From: Chamaesiphon minutus PCC 6605
Lineage (GTDB): Bacteria > Cyanobacteriota > Cyanobacteriia > Cyanobacteriales > Chamaesiphonaceae
NCBI RefSeq assembly: GCF_000317145.1
Contig: NC_019697.1
Location: 2,232,001-2,296,000 of the forward strand
Reading direction: 5' to 3'
DNA length: 64,000 nt
Below the pieces are notes generated by a model that saw nothing but the letters and a program-made list of their open reading frames with translations, searched no databases and was not told where the DNA came from. The position numbers and the translations under genes were made by a program. This document shows, piece by piece, positions 6,227 through 32,140 of this stretch (positions are counted from its first letter, which is position 1; each line of letters begins with the position of its first letter).

Positions 6227-6670
6227 CTAATTTCGGCTTGTTGGCACTATCGCCGTGTCTGGATGGATTGTGTAGTGAAAGACTTTGGCAATGATTTTCC
6301 ATTCGCCCTCAAGCTGAATGAGGGTAAGGAGATCGATAAAATCTTTACCTAGCATGGAACAACGCATTCGGGCGATCGCGGTGACAGCCCCTGCCAACTC
6401 GATCGAATCGATTGAAAATACATAGGGTTCACCGGATGATTCAGGAGAAATTCGTTGCTCGACGATTGGGAAATAGGAATGCATATCCAGGTGGAAGAGT
6501 TCTCCACTAGATGCCGTAAAGTATCGAGCACTGGCATGAAAAACAGTTGCCAAAAGAGCTGTATCACAACGATATAAAGCGTCATAATATCGCTTGAGTA
6601 GATCGACAATCGCGAAATATTCAATGCCGTCAACCTGTTTATCCACCGTATAGACTTGTGCTTGATTCAT
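6227..6670 (-). CDS. NTF2-like/SnoaL-fold protein (putative lumazine-binding type)
   Basis: 147 residues. The alpha+beta cone pattern is clear: helices IVDLLKRYYDALYRCDTALLATVFH, strands ARYFTASSGELFHLD, IDSIELAGAVTAIARMRC and FIDLLTLIQLEGEWKIIAKVFHY. This matches NTF2-like small-ligand proteins that often accompany oxidoreductases. The start ATG has GGAGG 7 nt upstream. It is the first gene of the minus-strand operon and lies 152 bp from the divergent LysR gene, so it is the probable direct target of that regulator. Confidence 0.82.
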   Translation of the reverse strand: MNQAQVYTVDKQVDGIEYFAIVDLLKRYYDALYRCDTALLATVFHASARYFTASSGELFHLDMHSYFPIVEQRISPESSGEPYVFSIDSIELAGAVTAIARMRCSMLGKDFIDLLTLIQLEGEWKIIAKVFHYTIHPDTAIVPTSRN

Positions 6671-8577: not shown

Positions 8578-9132
8578 ATGAAAAAAGTAGCAGTGTTTGG
8601 CAATGCTGGTGGCGGGAAATCAACTTTAAGCCAGAAATTATCAGAAATCCTGGGTTCCCCACTACACAGCTTGGATAAAATCCAATTTAGACAGAATGGT
8701 GTTGCCGTTCCAGTCGCAGAATATCAGCGCATTCACGCCCAAATTCTGGCTACCGATCGCTGGATTATTGATGGCTTTGGTTGTATGGAAACGCTCTGGC
8801 CGAGACTGGATGCAGCCGATAGCTTGGTATTTGTCGATTTGCCACTGTATTTACATTTTTGGTGGGTGACTAAAAGGATGTTAACGGGTAGTTTTAATCC
8901 ACCAGCAGGCTGGCCGGAAAATAGCCCAATCTTGAAGAGTTCGATAAATAGTTATCGTAATTTGTGGTTGTGCGATCGATACTTAACTCCAAAATATCGC
9001 GAGTATATCCAAAAGGCTAAAAACAATAAAAATGTCTATCATCTGAGATCTTCTCAGCAGATCGAGCAGTTTTTGGCATCGATAAATTCGGGCAATGCTA
9101 CCAAAATTATTGTCAGCAATGAGAAAAATTGA
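8578..9132 (+). CDS. P-loop nucleotide kinase-like protein (topology modulation/FlaR type)
   Basis: 184 residues. The Walker A GNAGGGKST lies at 8-16. WIIDGFGCMETLWPRLDAADSLVFVDLP is the DGxx and hydrophobic-Asp Walker B region of adenylate-kinase-like proteins. The HFWWVTKRMLTG lid helix is typical of the family often labelled DNA topology modulation protein FlaR. It probably phosphorylates a small nucleoside or nucleotide in the cytoplasm; the substrate is unknown. The start follows GAGAAGAGGAAAC. The gene overlaps the next one by 14 bp. Confidence 0.85.
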   Translation: MKKVAVFGNAGGGKSTLSQKLSEILGSPLHSLDKIQFRQNGVAVPVAEYQRIHAQILATDRWIIDGFGCMETLWPRLDAADSLVFVDLPLYLHFWWVTKRMLTGSFNPPAGWPENSPILKSSINSYRNLWLCDRYLTPKYREYIQKAKNNKNVYHLRSSQQIEQFLASINSGNATKIIVSNEKN

Positions 9133-24821: not shown

Positions 24822-25187
24822 TTACTTGGTAATACACACGGCATTGCCGTTTATAACGCACATCTGTTTTGTAGCACACAAATTGGCATTGCCACCTTCA
24901 AGTATTTTTCCGCCTAAAAATGAGCATTCGTCAGCAAGTATATTACTCGTATTGATAACGGGAGGTTCTTTGACAACGGGAGGTTTTTTCTCGATCCCAG
25001 GTCGTAGCAAATCGTTCACTTTGGTAGCGGGATTAGCCACTGATGTCGAGCCAGCAAATGCCGCATCCGTTGCACCCAGGAAGATCCCAATTAGCAACAA
25101 GCAAGACAACAAGACATTTTTCCGGCTCAACAATCTGGACTGTTGTTGAACGTTAACTCTAACAACAAAATTAGCAATAGGTTTCAT
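24822..25187 (-). CDS. Exported Cys-containing protein of unknown function
   Basis: 121 residues from the chosen ATG (MKPIANF). An N-terminal basic stretch and hydrophobic helix (about 24-41, LLSCLLLIGIFLGATDAAF) form a signal peptide cleaved after AFA. The mature part is Pro-rich and ends with four Cys (DECSFLGG, NLCATKQMCVINGNAVC), suggesting two disulphides. No family was recognised. It is preceded, 83 nt upstream, by the two-block motif at 25270-25298 shared with two other sites around the ECF sigma gene, so it is a candidate member of that regulon. Confidence 0.68.
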   Translation of the reverse strand: MKPIANFVVRVNVQQQSRLLSRKNVLLSCLLLIGIFLGATDAAFAGSTSVANPATKVNDLLRPGIEKKPPVVKEPPVINTSNILADECSFLGGKILEGGNANLCATKQMCVINGNAVCITK

Positions 25188-25269: not shown

Positions 25270-25298
25270 TAGTACGGAGGACACAGTAAATTGGATTT
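25270..25298 (-). promoter_or_regulatory. Candidate ECF sigma promoter C (AAATCCAAT-N12-CCGTACTA)
   Basis: On the minus strand AAATCCAAT (25298-25290) and CCGTACTA (25277-25270) are separated by exactly 12 nt. Both blocks and the spacing are identical to sites at 25667 and 28446. It points toward the exported-protein gene that starts at 25187. Confidence 0.65.
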
Positions 25299-25335
25299 CA
25301 CAACTTTGCAAGTTACCAAGCAAAAAACCTTATGA

Positions 25336-25464
25336 GAGGGTGGCTGAAAAGCACAGATCCAATCCCCCAGCCCCCTTAAAAAGGGGGAGGAAGAGTCTTA
25401 GTCCCCCTTGAAAAGGGGGATTTACAACCTAGGATCGTGCAAATAAAACTTTTCAGACACCCTC
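25336..25464. mobile_element. 129-bp MITE-like element with 16-bp terminal inverted repeats
   Basis: The ends GAGGGTGGCTGAAAAG and CTTTTCAGACACCCTC are inverted with one mismatch. The interior holds two C-run/G-run hairpins (CCCCCTT..AAGGGGG). No coding capacity. TGA stands on both sides and may be a 3-bp target duplication, but that is too short to be certain. Confidence 0.65.
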
Positions 25465-25521
25465 TGAGATAACACACCCTACTTTCACGAAAAATCAAGC
25501 TTTTGAGATATAAATTTTCTG

Positions 25522-25645
25522 GGCGTTGCTGAATTGATATATAAAATCCACAGGCAATTTAGGGTAGGGGCAATTCACGAATTGCCCCTACCTTGAATTT
25601 CATGTGCTGCTTAAAAAATAAATCATCTCCAGATTTAGCAACGCC
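25522..25645. mobile_element. 124-bp MITE with 13-bp inverted ends and 8-bp target duplication
   Basis: The ends GGCGTTGCTGAAT and ATTTAGCAACGCC are inverted with one mismatch. ATTTTCTG flanks it perfectly on both sides (25514-25521 and 25646-25653). The interior carries the GGTAGGGGCAATT hairpin also found at 11292. It has no gene, so it must have been moved by a transposase encoded elsewhere. The intact duplication suggests a recent insertion, right upstream of promoter A. Confidence 0.8.
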
Positions 25646-25649
25646 ATTT

Positions 25650-25686
25650 TCTGACATCAGATTTTCAAATCCAATCTGATGTCAGA
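25650..25686. promoter_or_regulatory. Perfect 14-bp inverted repeat overlapping candidate promoter A
   Basis: TCTGACATCAGATT and AATCTGATGTCAGA are separated by 9 nt. The AAATCCAAT block of promoter A sits in the loop and start of the right arm. The dyad could bind a regulator that competes with or helps the sigma factor. Confidence 0.5.
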
Positions 25687-25695
25687 TCCGTACTA
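25667..25695 (+). promoter_or_regulatory. Candidate ECF sigma promoter A (AAATCCAAT-N12-CCGTACTA)
   Basis: AAATCCAAT (25667-25675) and CCGTACTA (25688-25695), 48 nt upstream of the exported-protein gene at 25743. The identity with sites B and C is complete in both blocks while the spacer differs, as expected for a promoter. Confidence 0.65.
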
Positions 25696-25742
25696 AGGAT
25701 AACAGCGCATAAAAGACACTAATCCTTCACCACACTAAAACC

Positions 25743-26210
25743 ATGAAACTTCATTCCCTACTTTTACCGCTACTAGCGGTTCCCATTCTCTCGATATCAC
25801 TTCCTGCCAAATCCGAACCGTCGCTTATCCCCAACATCAACATCAACATCAACCCACAGCAAGTTGATGAAGTTGTCGATTTTGGCACCCGCAGTGTTAA
25901 TGAACAAGTAAATCAAAAAGCATTCAAAATCGACGTTCAAGTTCCACTCGGTCATACCAAATTTGTCGTTACGCCACCGCAGCCGTTTAATCTGAACACT
26001 CACAATGGTCAGATCGACACAAATCGTCGCGGTGAAATAGAGGCAAGCCTAAATTCAAGCGGATTAAGTGCTGGAGCACATCAAAAAGTTGTTACGATTT
26101 TAACCGAGAAAAAGTTAATAATTAAGCGAGTTTTACTGAAAGTAAAAATTGTCCCTAGCAGTACTACTCCTGGTTTTCCAAATGGCGAAGATCCTCGTAC
26201 AAAACCCTAA
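25743..26210 (+). CDS. Exported protein of unknown function
   Basis: 155 residues. The signal peptide (MKLHSLLLPLLAVPILSISLPAKS, cleavage near 24) is followed by an Asn/Ile-rich stretch NINININPQQ and a beta-rich region FKIDVQVPLGHTKFVVTPPQPF...GEIEASLNSSGLSAGAHQKVVTILTEKKLIIKRVLLKVKIV. It looks like an Ig-like or beta-sandwich periplasmic domain; family not recognised. Promoter A lies 48 nt upstream, so ECF control is inferred. Confidence 0.68.
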   Translation: MKLHSLLLPLLAVPILSISLPAKSEPSLIPNINININPQQVDEVVDFGTRSVNEQVNQKAFKIDVQVPLGHTKFVVTPPQPFNLNTHNGQIDTNRRGEIEASLNSSGLSAGAHQKVVTILTEKKLIIKRVLLKVKIVPSSTTPGFPNGEDPRTKP

Positions 26211-26285
26211 AAACTTACCAATAGGATCGAATAAATGTAAACTAATCTTTCAGATCTAATCTGAAAAAAATCCAGGGGAACACTT

Positions 26286-26567
26286 TTATCCCAAGAGATC
26301 GCGCCACTGTTTGAATAATTGATTGTGGGGTTGGAGATCGATCGCCCGATCGTAATCGACGATCGCGCCTGACAGATCTCCGATCTGCTGCCGAAAGTTT
26401 GCCCGCTCTGCATACAAATAAGCACAATTTGGATCGGTGGCAATTTCTCGATCGATCCAATCGATCGCCCCAAAAATATCGCCATTCTCCATGCAAGTAT
26501 AAATCCGATCGGCAAGATGATGTCGATCGAGATCCAATCTGATGTTTCGATCTGGATGGTTTTCCAT
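26286..26567 (-). CDS. Small tetratricopeptide-like protein
   Basis: 93 residues, soluble. DIFGAIDWIDREIATDPNCAYLYAERANFRQQIGDLSGAIVDYDRAIDLQPHNQLFKQW contains about one and a half TPR units with the usual W/L/G/Y/A/P positions. Such single-TPR proteins mediate contacts, and no partner can be named. It is convergent with the exported-protein gene at 25743. The start chosen is the Met before ENHPDRN; overlapping frames on the same strand are shadows. Confidence 0.65.
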   Translation of the reverse strand: MENHPDRNIRLDLDRHHLADRIYTCMENGDIFGAIDWIDREIATDPNCAYLYAERANFRQQIGDLSGAIVDYDRAIDLQPHNQLFKQWRDLLG

Positions 26568-26647
26568 AGCGATCTATAAAGGTGAAGCGCATCTTGCTGT
26601 GATTCGGGGTGTATAGAGATTAAGTCTAATATTTCCTTAAAGTATTA

Positions 26648-26936
26648 ACAGTAAGAAAAAGTTAGATAAAGTCAGTTATTTGGTTGCCCTAAAACTGAAT
26701 TTGAATTCTGAAAACAATTTGGAAAGGTGGGAAAAAGTCATAAAAAGTGAGTTATTTCAGCTCCATCCGATCTCACTTGTGGGTACAAGTCAAGATTTTC
26801 AGAAATCAGATTTTGCTAAGAAGATTGACTGAAAACATTGCTCGGCTTTGCTGTGAGTCGATCGCTCGGCTTTGCTGTGACATCTAGTCTCGATGGTTTC
26901 CAAAATACAACACTTTTACTGACTTTTTCTTACTGT
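26648..26936. repeat. 289-bp element bounded by perfect 15-bp inverted repeats
   Basis: ACAGTAAGAAAAAGT (26648-26662) is matched by ACTTTTTCTTACTGT (26922-26936). Secondary arms GTCAGT and ACTGAC lie just inside. Within it GCTCGGCTTTGCTGTGA occurs twice 23 bp apart (about 26840-26881). There is no open frame of interest. It fills the region upstream of the ECF sigma gene and may be a MITE or a bound regulatory region. No clear target duplication was seen. Confidence 0.55.
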
Positions 26937-26968
26937 GCAATCTCAGGTGCTTGAGTAATATAAGAACC

Positions 26969-26983
26969 AGCTAGAACCTAGCT
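26969..26983. promoter_or_regulatory. Palindrome AGCTAG-AAC-CTAGCT upstream of the ECF sigma gene
   Basis: A perfect 6-bp dyad with a 3-nt centre, 28 nt before the ATG of the sigma gene and just before a TTATTATTTATTTAGGA leader. Position suits an operator or leader hairpin. The AAATCCAAT-N12-CCGTACTA motif was not found directly in front of this gene, so classical autoregulation from that motif is not supported here. Confidence 0.35.
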
Positions 26984-27011
26984 AAATTATTATTTATTTA
27001 GGACTAATCGG

Positions 27012-27578
27012 ATGAGCAAAATTCATTTCGATCCTCCCGATGCTGACTTAATTGCTAGTTTGCATCAAGGGAACAAAAATGCTTTAAGTGTTTTATACGA
27101 TCGCTATGGGGGTTTAGTGTACACTTTAGCCCTAAAATTACTCGATCGTCCTGATGAAGCCGAAGATCTCACCCAAGACATATTCTTGAGCTTTTGGAAA
27201 CAGGATAAATTCGATCCCAGTCGTGCTAAGTTAAGTAGCTATCTGTGCTTACTGACTCGATCGAGAGCGATCGATAAGTTGCGAACTCGGCAGAGCGAAC
27301 AGAAATCGCTGCAAAGATTCCAACAAAATATCATTCCCGAAACCGATCTACCGACTCCATTAGATTCAGTAAGTCTTGCTGAGGAACGAGCTATCGTTCG
27401 GGAGTCTCTAGCTTCATTAAGCGATCGTCAAAGACAAATTCTCGAATTAAGTTATTATCAAAACCTCAGCCAATCAGCGATTGCCACACAACTCGATCTA
27501 CCAATAGGTACTGTCAAAACTCATGCACGGCAAGGACTAATTAAATTACGTCAACTGTTGCAATCGCAGATTGGTTAA
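27012..27578 (+). CDS. ECF-type RNA polymerase sigma factor (SigK-like)
   Basis: 188 residues. Region 2 (about 25-95) reads ALSVLYDRYGGLVYTLALKLLDRPDEAEDLTQDIFLSFWKQ...LTRSRAIDKLRTRQS. Region 4 (about 130-185) reads SLSDRQRQILELSYYQNLSQSAIATQLDLPIGTVKTHARQGLIKLRQLL. There is no region 3, which is typical of ECF factors. It directs RNA polymerase to envelope or stress genes when released from its anti-sigma. The anti-sigma gene follows after 11 bp in one operon. Three copies of a candidate promoter lie within 1.8 kb. Confidence 0.93.
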   Translation: MSKIHFDPPDADLIASLHQGNKNALSVLYDRYGGLVYTLALKLLDRPDEAEDLTQDIFLSFWKQDKFDPSRAKLSSYLCLLTRSRAIDKLRTRQSEQKSLQRFQQNIIPETDLPTPLDSVSLAEERAIVRESLASLSDRQRQILELSYYQNLSQSAIATQLDLPIGTVKTHARQGLIKLRQLLQSQIG

Positions 27579-27589
27579 AGGAGAAACCT

Positions 27590-28372
27590 ATGAGTGTCCC
27601 AATTTCGGAAGAAGAAAAAATGTTAGCGGCTGGCTATGTATTAGGAGATTTAGACACTTTAGAAACTAGAGAATTTGAATCTGCGCTGAATAACAACCCC
27701 GCTTTGTGGGCTGAAGTATATGCGCTCCAAGCTGCCTTTAACAAAGTGCCTGAATGCTTGCCCCAAATCGATCCACCACTGGCATTAAAAGCCAAAATTA
27801 TCGAGTCTTTCGATCCTAATTTGTCAAACTCCAGTCTAACTGTCAATCTCCCCCAGCCGACGGTAAACGAAGTAACTCCAATCCCTAAAAAAGTGTTGAC
27901 ATGGAGCAGAGCATTAGCAGGAATTGGATTGTGTCTTGCTGGATTTTTATCATTTGATAATTTTAATTTGCGGCAACAATTACAATTTGCCCAACAGGTA
28001 GATCGAGAGGAATTAGCAAGTGTATTAAGCCAACCTAAAAGTCGGCTACTTTCCTTGAGCGATCGATCGGATCGAGTAGTGGGAAAAGTGTTATTTACAC
28101 CTGGAAACTGGCAGCAGGTAATTGTATCAGCCAAAAATCTCCCACCATTACCTGTCGATCGAGTCTATCGGATGTGGTTGGAATTAGCTAATGGACAAGT
28201 TATTCCTTGCGGTGAATTCAAAACCGACAATAGCGGCAGCATATTTATTAAGTTAAATGCTAAACAAAAGCCACCAGCAGGTGTCAAAGCTAAGGGTGTG
28301 TTTGTGACGATCGATCGAACTATCGATCCACTCGAACCAATAGGGCAAAGAGTAATTCAAGGCACCATTTAA
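27590..28372 (+). CDS. Membrane-bound anti-sigma factor (RskA-like)
   Basis: 260 residues. The cytoplasmic N-terminal anti-sigma domain (about 5-75) reads EEEKMLAAGYVLGDLDTLETREFESALNNNPALWAEVYALQ. A single transmembrane helix (about 105-123, ALAGIGLCLAGFLSF) leads to an external RskA C-terminal domain with LPPLPVDRVYRMWLELANGQVIPCGEF...PPAGVKAKGVFVTID. In the resting state it should hold the upstream sigma at the membrane and release it after regulated cleavage. The start has AAGGAGAAACC upstream. Confidence 0.9.
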   Translation: MSVPISEEEKMLAAGYVLGDLDTLETREFESALNNNPALWAEVYALQAAFNKVPECLPQIDPPLALKAKIIESFDPNLSNSSLTVNLPQPTVNEVTPIPKKVLTWSRALAGIGLCLAGFLSFDNFNLRQQLQFAQQVDREELASVLSQPKSRLLSLSDRSDRVVGKVLFTPGNWQQVIVSAKNLPPLPVDRVYRMWLELANGQVIPCGEFKTDNSGSIFIKLNAKQKPPAGVKAKGVFVTIDRTIDPLEPIGQRVIQGTI

Positions 28373-28445
28373 CTAAATCATAACTCACATTTACAGGCTT
28401 TTTTAAGCAGCATGTGAGAAAATTATCGATTTTTTAGATTTTGCT

Positions 28446-28474
28446 AAATCCAATTCGCTGCTACCTCCGTACTA
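28446..28474 (+). promoter_or_regulatory. Candidate ECF sigma promoter B (AAATCCAAT-N12-CCGTACTA)
   Basis: AAATCCAAT (28446-28454) and CCGTACTA (28467-28474) with the same 12-nt spacing as sites A and C. No convincing gene begins directly downstream. The next starts are the truncated copy at 28977 and the exported-protein gene at 29288, so it may now drive a long leader or an unannotated small RNA. Confidence 0.6.
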
Positions 28475-28813
28475 TAGATAATAGCAAAGAAAGGATGATA
28501 AAACGAGCTTCTATCTTTGCTATTAGATTAGTAAATTATGATTAAGTATTCTTAATGAATACTCATAGATCGATCGCCAATCTTGTCACTCGCTATTTCA
28601 GACTGACTAAGTAGCTAGGCACAAACATTTATTAGATCTAAATCGCCTGAAACATAGATGGTTGGCATTGCCCACCCTAATCAGTATCTGAAGTGGTTGA
28701 AACCAATCCTCGCTTGTAAATTACTTTTTCAATCGGAATAATCTAACAATTAAGATCGGAAAGGCCAATCTTTTCCGTTGGCATAGCATTTTAGAATGAG
28801 AATCGTCAACAGC

Positions 28814-28888
28814 AGATCTTTTCCGATCTTTTCCGATCTTTTCCGATCGTTAACAGCAGGTTTTTACCGATCTTTTCTGGCTGTCAAA
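28814..28888 (+). repeat. GATCTTTTCC-type dispersed repeat, copy 2
   Basis: Same element as 7779-7836, here with the ten-mer GATCTTTTCC expanded to three consecutive copies, followed by TTTTTACCGATCTTTTCTGG and CTGTCAAA. Confidence 0.75.
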
Positions 28889-29287: not shown

Positions 29288-29731
29288 ATGAAACTTCTAC
29301 ACTCGCTCAAATCCGCTAAAGCTCTCGGTTTTGCTATTGCAAGTGCTGCTAGCATGATGACCGCAACTGTTGCTCCAGCTATGGCACAAGTAGCACCCAA
29401 CGCAACTATCTCTTTCTCTAATCAAGGCGGCTATAACGCAGAATACTTTGTCTCGGGGCAGATTAAAAGCTTTGATGGGCGCGTCCTCCGCAACCTATCC
29501 ACATTTCATAGCCAAAACATGCTACTGGGTCAAAAACGAGCGGTCTCCTTCCCGCTGACTACCCAAGAGATCCGGCAGGGGGCGGCTCGATTCGTCACCG
29601 TCACAGGCCGCATGAGCCATAATCGCCAGGTCTTTATCCAAAAATCCTTCCGCCTCGACAATAATACGTGCTTCTTCAACGACCAAACCGTCTTCAACCC
29701 CAAAGGTAGTTCTCGCCCAGGTTCTTGCTAA
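29288..29731 (+). CDS. Exported protein of unknown function (paralogue of 13993)
   Basis: 147 residues, start MKLLHSLKSAKALGFAIASAASMMTATVAPAMA as a signal peptide, then the same beta-rich domain as the protein at 13993 (ISFSNQGGYNAEYFVSGQIKSFDGRVLRNLSTFHSQNMLLGQKRAVSFPL, VTVTGRMSHNRQVFIQKSF). It has two C-terminal Cys. Differences are spread evenly, so both copies seem functional. The start has AAGGAATT upstream; a longer frame from 28994 would use the repeat-derived leader and is rejected. A strong terminator follows. Confidence 0.8.
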   Translation: MKLLHSLKSAKALGFAIASAASMMTATVAPAMAQVAPNATISFSNQGGYNAEYFVSGQIKSFDGRVLRNLSTFHSQNMLLGQKRAVSFPLTTQEIRQGAARFVTVTGRMSHNRQVFIQKSFRLDNNTCFFNDQTVFNPKGSSRPGSC

Positions 29732-29848: not shown

Positions 29849-32140
29849 ATGTACCGCTGGATTCAGGGTACGGTAGTTTTGTGCTGCTCGATCGCGCTAT
29901 GCGCGCTACCCACCCGCGCACAATTACTGCCTATCTCCAAAATTAATTTAACTTTAACAACCCCAATTCTATCGCCAGTTATTACCCTTAAATCAGGGGA
30001 AATATTGCGCGTCAAAGTCGAGCGATTGCCACCTCAAACAGAAATTGCTGTATTTTTGGGCGATCTCGATATCACTTCTCAAATGCAACGAGAAGGACAA
30101 GAATTAGTATATAAATCGACTTTTTTACCCCTACCTGTTGGGGAGCAAACACTTACAGTTTATCGCACTACCACACCCGATCGGTGGGAACCTGTCGCGA
30201 CTTTCCCTGTTAAAATCACACCAAATTCCAGCCAAATCGCCACCCAAACCGAAGAATCTGGTAAATCCCCAACTTCAACAACAACCCCAGCACCCAGCCC
30301 CGATCCCTCATCTCAACCTGACTCGATCCCTGCAAATCCCAGCGATTCTCAATCCCCAACTGCTACTACACCCCCGCCAGCCGGAGCGGCACCTGCAACA
30401 ACTTCAGCCACTGCTACCGATCCCACTAGCCCCATCGGTTTCAGCACCAAACTCAACGTCAACATCAAATCTCAACTCGCCGAATCTCGCAGCCCCGATG
30501 CGGGTGTTTCACCTCGCCCCACATTCTTAGATGCCGACTTCACAGGCGAACTATCCGCCCTATATCCCATCGGGACGGGCAAATTGCAAGGCAAAGTCAA
30601 CCTCGTCGGTACCACCTTCCAACCGGAAGCTCTCCGCTTTAACGAACTCCAAGAACGCTCACCCCTTGTCGATCTCAGTGCCTACTCGATCGATTTTACC
30701 GATGGCGAAAATAAGGTGGCAATCGGTAATGTGTGCTTTGGCAACAATCCCTTACTCGTCAGCAATGTCTGTACCAGAGGCGTGACAGCCAATCTCAAAC
30801 TCAATAATTTCGCCGATCTCAGTATCGGACATCTCAGCACCACCGCGATCGTCGGTTTCGATAATATATTGGGGATTGGCGAGAGTAACAACAATCTCAC
30901 GGGAGCCACCCTCGGAATGCAAGTGGCGAATAATAACTCTGGTGGCGTGCGGCTGGAAACTACCGTGATGAATGGTTCGCGCTTACCCGTTGCCAATTTT
31001 AACGTCGGTGAAGTCGTCGATGCCGAAACCAGCGATGGGATCGGCTTCCGAGTCACCGCTGCTAACGATGACGGACGCTGGAAAGCCGATGCTGGTTTTG
31101 CTCGCAGTACCTTCACTGCGGGTGGAAATAACGATCCGCAACTCACTGAGGGTACCAACGCTATCGCCCTCCAACCCGTGACTAAAAATGCCTGGTATGC
31201 CGAAACTAGCTACGATATTCTCAAGGATGTCAAACTAGACGATAAGCGCAATATAGCTCTTTCCGCCAATATCAAACTGGAGCAGACAGATCCTCAATTT
31301 GGCACACTCGGTGCAACTGTCAATGCCGACAGGTTGCAAGCTCAGTATGGCATCAATGCCACGATCGCGGGTGCGAATATTCAATTTCAGCATACTAATT
31401 CTGAAGATAATATCGCCAATCTTCCAAATCTTTTGAAGACTAGAAATAACAGCGATACTATTAGCTTGAATATACCATTGCAGTCAGTTTTACAGAATAA
31501 TAGTCCCCTATTACCCACTATTTCCTACAGTTATCAAAAAACAGCTCAAAACGGTTCGATCTTGGCTGCCCTCAATGGTGGTTTTGACGAACCATCCGAA
31601 ATTCCTAATCAACTTACTAATACTCAAGAAATCGGACTAGAATGGAAATTTTCTGAAGCATTATCATTCGATTATAAATTTAGCACCACTTTTCAAGACA
31701 ATCGCCAACCGGGACGCGAAAATGCCGATTTTAATAATACCAGTCATCAATTTTCAGTCGGTTGGCAACCTAGCCAACAATTAAGATTCAATCTTGGCTA
31801 CAACTTCACTAATGCCCAAAATATCGAACGCCAAATTACGCGATTTACCCAAAGTCCGACCTTTGGAGTGAGTTGGGAATTCGTCCCTGATGTCACATTA
31901 GCCCTTAATTACAATTTTAATAATGATTCTGATTCGATCGGCGAATCTTTGACTCGATCGAATGCGCTAGATTTACTCCTAACTTGGAATTTCAAAACAA
32001 ATACTTTCGGTCGCGAAAATCCTGGCAGTGTTTTCCTCCGCTACAGTGGTCAATCGAATCTTAACAGTAGTTCGATCGGCAATATTAACACCAATTCAAC
32101 AATTAATACCATCAGCACAGGCATGAGCCTAAGTTTTTAA
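29849..32140 (+). CDS. Large exported, probable outer-membrane beta-barrel protein
   Basis: 763 residues. The signal peptide (about 1-25, ending ALPTRA) is followed by a small beta domain (30-125, LKSGEILRVKVERLPPQTEIAVFLG), a Pro/Ser/Thr-rich linker (130-195) and a long region of alternating amphipathic strands rich in Asn/Thr (LRFNLGYNFTNAQN, VTLALNYNFNNDSDS, LLLTWNFKTNTFG). It ends TISTGMSLSF with the terminal Phe typical of outer-membrane barrels. Family not recognised. AGGAGAAT precedes the start. It precedes a second exported-protein gene by 63 bp, so they may form one envelope module. Confidence 0.7.
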   Translation: MYRWIQGTVVLCCSIALCALPTRAQLLPISKINLTLTTPILSPVITLKSGEILRVKVERLPPQTEIAVFLGDLDITSQMQREGQELVYKSTFLPLPVGEQTLTVYRTTTPDRWEPVATFPVKITPNSSQIATQTEESGKSPTSTTTPAPSPDPSSQPDSIPANPSDSQSPTATTPPPAGAAPATTSATATDPTSPIGFSTKLNVNIKSQLAESRSPDAGVSPRPTFLDADFTGELSALYPIGTGKLQGKVNLVGTTFQPEALRFNELQERSPLVDLSAYSIDFTDGENKVAIGNVCFGNNPLLVSNVCTRGVTANLKLNNFADLSIGHLSTTAIVGFDNILGIGESNNNLTGATLGMQVANNNSGGVRLETTVMNGSRLPVANFNVGEVVDAETSDGIGFRVTAANDDGRWKADAGFARSTFTAGGNNDPQLTEGTNAIALQPVTKNAWYAETSYDILKDVKLDDKRNIALSANIKLEQTDPQFGTLGATVNADRLQAQYGINATIAGANIQFQHTNSEDNIANLPNLLKTRNNSDTISLNIPLQSVLQNNSPLLPTISYSYQKTAQNGSILAALNGGFDEPSEIPNQLTNTQEIGLEWKFSEALSFDYKFSTTFQDNRQPGRENADFNNTSHQFSVGWQPSQQLRFNLGYNFTNAQNIERQITRFTQSPTFGVSWEFVPDVTLALNYNFNNDSDSIGESLTRSNALDLLLTWNFKTNTFGRENPGSVFLRYSGQSNLNSSSIGNINTNSTINTISTGMSLSF

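Follow-up and report, generated by a model that had tools for sequence, protein, structure and literature searches.

In the window analysed here, a stretch of 64,000 nucleotides (nt) of Chamaesiphon minutus PCC 6605 (G000:C1:2232001-2296000; genome 6.76 Mb, three contigs), three copies of a two-part motif, AAATCCAAT-N12-CCGTACTA, lie around a gene pair for an extracytoplasmic function (ECF) sigma factor and an RskA-like anti-sigma factor. Judging from their sequence and surroundings, we predict that these sites are, very probably, the -35/-10 promoters of the RskA-type ECF sigma encoded at 27012.

The three sites were recovered with the positions and strands reported by a first-pass annotation of this DNA; both blocks and the 12-base gap are identical among them, and the spacers differ. 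Two of them point, as that annotation had proposed, at exported-protein genes: signal-peptide-like open reading frames (ORFs) with their ATG at 25187 (minus strand) and 25743 (plus strand), lying 82 nt from the second block of site 1 and 47 nt from that of site 2. Signal-peptide calls were made throughout with a simple hydrophobicity rule, not with SignalP.

The exact motif occurs three times in the genome, each time inside one 3.2-kb part of the window, and the search of the genome with the full pattern found no place with one mismatch. Allowing up to three mismatches gave 33 places against 19 for the reversed-pattern control (three exact, two with two mismatches, 28 with three), and both two-mismatch places are overlapped by ORFs of at least 100 amino acids (aa). 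The full-length motif is therefore specific to the window locus. The concern that it might be common genome-wide regardless of gene starts was not borne out, all three full-length copies being intergenic and at this locus. Within the window, four matches with at most three mismatches were found where 0.20 were expected, and none of 100 shuffles reached four; a scan for sigma-70 promoters returned eight, against 9.4 in shuffles.

The window sigma scores 250.8 bits against the NCBIfam model PRK12519 (cut-off 222). Its earlier description as SigK-like holds as a resemblance, the best solved relative being SigK of Mycobacterium tuberculosis (PDB 4nqw), but not as membership: the SigK model PRK09646 (ECF19) gives 126.1 bits against a cut-off of 226, and the protein has a single cysteine, residue 79, and lacks the two of SigK. 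The anti-sigma was rightly called RskA-like, its RskA_C domain scoring 42.8 bits over a gathering score of 29.4; no zinc motif was found in it. A structure model of moderate confidence (mean predicted local distance difference test, pLDDT, 66.7) has N-terminal helices at residues 7-18, 23-35, 37-51 and 64-73, followed by a long helix (105-134) and, at the C-terminus, a beta domain. A fold search with this model gave no match at E <=0.001, and the 50 fold matches listed include no solved anti-sigma.

Over the respective cut-offs, the window genome encodes two PRK12519 sigmas besides the window one, and one PRK12518 sigma. In the wider set of 60 relatives, PRK12519 was found over its cut-off in 26. 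A SigG-type label for the PRK12518 loci did not hold up: matches over the cut-off of this model occur in 36 of the 60 relatives, and the 14 control genomes have none, although one of these, Synechococcus elongatus, has a SigG. At G000:C1:4238862-4239395, a frame resembling a sigma gene is interrupted by a TGA and may be what is left of an ECF gene.

A conserved core beside related sigma genes

A scan of named genomes gave 519 confirmed relatives of the window sigma, nearly all in cyanobacteria. The best 80 of these were kept as loci, and L111, which shares a contig with G001, was left out of the locus counts, leaving 79. One contig labelled Deltaproteobacteria (L162) has an otherwise cyanobacterial sigma type and is perhaps a misbinned metagenome-assembled genome.

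The loci were scanned for ATCCAA and CGTA separated by 12-14 bases. Within the 450 nt upstream of the sigma match, the exact core stands at 21 of the 79 loci (29 sites, every one with a gap of 14), and the reversed pattern gave no site there; over all 868 kb of the named-genome loci the respective counts are 48 and 4. When one mismatch was allowed, 53 of the 77 loci whose upstream stretch was complete had the core in this zone on either strand, and 47 had it on the strand of the sigma. Against the 53 of 77 stand 2 of 20 loci of another ECF family, PRK12518 (20 of its 36 over-cut-off matches), and 39 of 1540 mononucleotide shuffles of the upstream stretches, which preserve base counts only. Clustering the sigmas at 90%, 80% and 70% identity left 42 of 62, 34 of 51 and 19 of 28 with a match. 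A gap of 14 was seen at 44 sites and every other gap from 10 to 19 at one to four sites each; such a sharp 14-base gap is the look of a -35/-10 promoter.

All but one of the 63 exact-core sites in 99 stretches are intergenic. Of these 62, 23 face a sigma gene (L112 counted), 37 face another ORF, and two (window site 3 and L093) face none; ORF starts were sought within 330 nt and found at 6-189 nt. Signal- or membrane-like N-termini were called for 29 of the 37 non-sigma targets, for which ATG, GTG or TTG starts were accepted, against 244 of 952 background genes taken from ATG only. After 36 targets had been merged into 12 homologous clusters, at least half of the members were signal-like in 10 clusters (Fisher p 5.5e-5). 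The targets also include a DUF4394 protein (L166) and, in L135 and L143, exported CHRD proteins whose genes immediately precede the sigma.

Eight genomes of the same genus were searched, and an orthologous anti-sigma was found in two of them, G001 and G004 (75% and 66% identity), each beside a sigma 82% and 78% identical, respectively, to that of the window. Sites with zero to two mismatches to AATCCAA-N13-CCGTACT lie near the anti-sigma in both: at 6250 (plus), 6134 (minus) and 10930 (minus) in L091, and at 8719, 14981 and 15099 (plus) in L092. They precede exported-looking genes or a gene of the major facilitator superfamily (MFS), the MFS gene behind a site being common to G001 and G004. 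The exported genes adjoining the sites show no homology among the window, L091 and L092 stretches at E 1e-5. In L091, site 6134 is followed on the same strand by an exported-looking gene (6116-5604) and then by the sigma from 5358; in L092, sites 14981 and 15099 are followed likewise by an exported-looking gene from 15164 and the sigma from 15772. Because site, exported-looking gene and sigma share one strand, read-through could raise the sigma itself in both.

Among the same-genus genomes, the full pattern with one mismatch found nothing in G003, G005, G006 and G007, and the CGTA core is changed in the match of G008 as well as in the third match of G001. The G002 draft, which has another PRK12519 sigma elsewhere, contains an orphan candidate promoter (L093 5387-5413) that runs into the 3' end of a gene convergent with it; that gene is 83% identical to a G004 gene with a weak M41 peptidase match. 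Many of the order-level matches have the form AATCCACTGATT...CCCGTACT and are taken to be putative conserved coding sequence. In relatives, the signal of the full pattern lies in position, not in total number.

Weighing the promoter reading

The promoter part of the first-pass reading is sustained by the conservation of the core beside related sigmas, by its sharp spacing and by its placement before sigma or exported genes. The loci show the conserved -35/-10 blocks at fixed spacing, upstream of the sigma and of target genes, that mark ECF-dependent promoters; excepted are 24 of the 77 loci, which have no core match at up to one mismatch, and this is the first of several points that weigh against the reading. 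Among the 21 exact loci, that of L112 is doubtful because its site overlaps the sigma start codon. In the 60 relatives the full pattern with one mismatch shows no overall excess, its 36 matches standing against 37 of the reversed pattern by our own sum, and the one good site of G002 occurs in a genome that lacks an orthologous anti-sigma. At the window itself, no ORF of at least 45 aa starts within 330 nt of site 3. The window sigma has no match to the degenerate pattern in the 450 nt upstream; direct autoregulation, which core sites facing the sigma suggest in relatives (L099, L101, L103, L115, L122, L131), is therefore not shown at the window locus, where any such link would be indirect or absent. 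Finally, the use of the window sites by the 27012 sigma is deduced from position, because the genome holds two more PRK12519 sigmas over the cut-off, one of them by a core.

This last point leads to the alternative that fares best, namely that this sigma family does use the sites as promoters, but that the sigma at work is one of the two paralogues, or that all three sigmas share them. Such a paralogue does have a core beside it: at G000:C1:1096879 (L095 6879) a core lies upstream of the paralogous sigma/anti-sigma pair and points away from it, toward an exported-looking protein of 144 aa. We nevertheless consider this alternative improbable, as the 27012 locus holds every full-length match and, within the genus, several good sites occur in just those two genomes that carry the orthologous pair.

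Two conserved blocks with a fixed gap would also suit a dimeric DNA-binding protein, so that the sites might bind another regulator, activator or repressor, rather than a sigma factor. This is very unlikely: the blocks are not repeats of each other, the sites are associated more strongly with one sigma family than with the PRK12518 control, and what follows in the direction of the site is a sigma gene or an often signal-like ORF. That the sites stem from a small dispersed repeat or transposon and have no role, as the exact identity of both blocks might suggest, is hardly credible, given that spacers and flanks differ, that the genome has no more full-length copies up to one mismatch, and that other genera, too, have the core ahead of related sigma genes.

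Predicted regulon and its possible signal

If the sites are promoters of the 27012 sigma, the presumably membrane-anchored RskA-like anti-sigma would, as in its family, keep the sigma bound, to be freed by a signal from the periplasm or envelope. Free sigma with RNA polymerase would then recognise the sites directly, transcription would start shortly after CCGTACTA, and the exported proteins A and B together with a third transcript from site 3 would be switched on. The features of the locus are collected in Table 1.

Table 1. Features of the sigma/anti-sigma locus (positions in the window)
Feature	Position	Strand	Description
Gene A	24825..25187	-	121 aa from ATG 25187; signal-peptide-like
Promoter 1 (candidate)	25270..25298	-	-35 block AAATCCAAT, N12, -10 block CCGTACTA; faces exported gene A
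Promoter 2 (candidate)	25667..25695	+	blocks as in promoter 1; faces exported gene B
Gene B	25743..26210	+	155 aa; signal-peptide-like
Small TPR-like ORF	26286..26567	-	between gene B and sigma gene; all four TPR models below cut-offs
ECF sigma	27012..27578	+	188 aa; Sigma70_r2 and Sigma70_r4, no other sigma-70 region
RskA-like anti-sigma	27590..28372	+	260 aa; RskA_C domain
Promoter 3 (candidate)	28446..28474	+	after anti-sigma gene; blocks as in promoter 1
Stem-loop (predicted)	28480..28524	+	11 outer pairs, about where a promoter 3 transcript would start; from a 91-nt fold
Exported-protein-like ORF	29288..29731	+	about 0.8 kb past promoter 3 in its direction; tie to promoter 3 unproven

Genes A and B have no match in Pfam or NCBIfam and are genus-restricted among the 148 genomes of the order-level set: gene A was matched solely in its own genome, and gene B, outside its own genome, only in the same-genus G003 (37% and 27% identity).

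Downstream of site 3, the 91-nt fold at 28480-28570 has a z of -3.49, with none of 200 shuffles as stable and a second hairpin behind the first. No Rfam family fits the region; one sub-threshold microRNA match was taken as chance. The stem-loop may belong to a small RNA, a 5' leader, or a leader of the genes from 29288 on. For two larger genes beyond site 3, at 29849 and 32204, homologues (53% and 66%) lie close to the sigma of G004. Between site 3 and 29288, a short tandem run of GATCTTTTCC units occupies 28815-28849.

The pattern AATCCAA-N13-YCGTAYT with one mismatch was found at 21 places in the genome against two for its reversed control. Of 20 weak sites (18 one-mismatch matches of this pattern and the two two-mismatch matches of the full pattern), 15 are overlapped by ORFs of at least 100 aa. 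The exact 10-base core occurs at 18 places against three in the control, 12 of them within ORFs of at least 90 aa. The six intergenic places are the three window sites, the one by the paralogous sigma, one about 70 nt before a 964-aa open frame with three DUF4394 matches (L252 ~1501; G000:C1:1373022, minus strand), and one that no ORF follows on its strand. With most weak sites in ORFs and no excess of the full pattern in relatives, a large genome-wide regulon is unsupported. The proposed envelope-stress regulon is a prediction: the targets look exported, one of the three sites lacks an evident target, and the stress signal is likewise predicted rather than observed.

In distant relatives, the targets hint at a signal. 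One target cluster of 11 members consists of exported proteins with methionine-rich repeats; methionine makes up 3.0-13.6% of the sequence past the first 24 residues, and in seven of the 11 residue 21 is a cysteine, a lipoprotein-like feature. Other core sites face a cytochrome b561 gene, or a redoxin gene with an adjoining DsbD_TM gene. In L094, a molybdopterin oxidoreductase follows the cytochrome b561 gene; its best NCBIfam model is MsrP, below the cut-off (94.8 against 207). Homologues of the oxidoreductase, cytochrome, redoxin and DsbD were found in 10, 9, 8 and 8 of 100 stretches, with the duplicates L094/L138 and L098/L100 counted. In the window, no homologues of these four were found; the methionine-rich protein was not searched for there.

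Genes for cytochrome b561, redoxin, DsbD and the MsrP-like oxidoreductase occur together near an RskA-type ECF pair, or near a sigma and a core, at L094 14482-17638 and also in L098, L100, L122, L131, L138 and L147; the methionine-rich exported protein is present in all of these except L147.

According to excerpts of PMC5748585, a methionine-rich peptide that scavenges hypochlorite and a methionine sulfoxide reductase are under the control of an ECF/anti-sigma pair in Azospira suillum. By analogy, in lineages with such targets the system may answer periplasmic oxidants. Tentatively, and with less than even confidence, we propose that ATCCAA-N14-CGTA is one RskA-type ECF promoter code kept across cyanobacteria while its targets are exchanged. 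These would comprise CHRD-domain and DUF4394 proteins, exported proteins restricted to a genus and, in several lineages, a set that protects against methionine oxidation in the periplasm: an MsrP-like enzyme together with cytochrome b561, a methionine-rich exported protein, redoxin and DsbD. The common signal would be periplasmic oxidant damage. It looks as though regulator and promoter stay fixed and exported targets change. With a promoter code that can be read from sequence, the regulon of this sigma type could be predicted in further cyanobacterial genomes; the code also provides a concrete signal hypothesis, periplasmic oxidants.

Comparison with known systems

Among the papers listed on cyanobacterial sigma factors that contain ATCCAA, none seems, judged by title and abstract opening, to describe the core promoter. 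The closest solved sigma comes from the SigK-RskA system of Mycobacterium tuberculosis (ECF19; 4nqw), and the anti-sigma here has the RskA_C domain without the zinc motif; the window sigma differs in falling under the SigK cut-off and in lacking the two SigK cysteines. SigK promoters have the hexamers CCATCC...CCGAAT. Excerpts of PMC7509140 describe the two cysteines as conserved in SigK of ECF18/19, yet absent in Nocardia SigK.

The cyanobacterial SigG-SapG system is alike in pairing an ECF sigma with a partner gene downstream; there, according to passages of the review PMC2758279, the two are co-transcribed and their products interact. Because G-type sigmas are present in all strains covered by those passages and PRK12519 was found in fewer than half of the 60 relatives, the identification of the window sigma as SigG is weakly disfavoured.

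From the SigF-NrsF-MrpX-YedY1 system of Azospira suillum the window locus differs in its RskA-like anti-sigma and in having no oxidoreductase, cytochrome, redoxin or DsbD homologues found in the window. The likeness lies with the distant relatives, whose targets resemble the methionine-rich peptide and methionine sulfoxide reductase of that system as far as its excerpted description goes.

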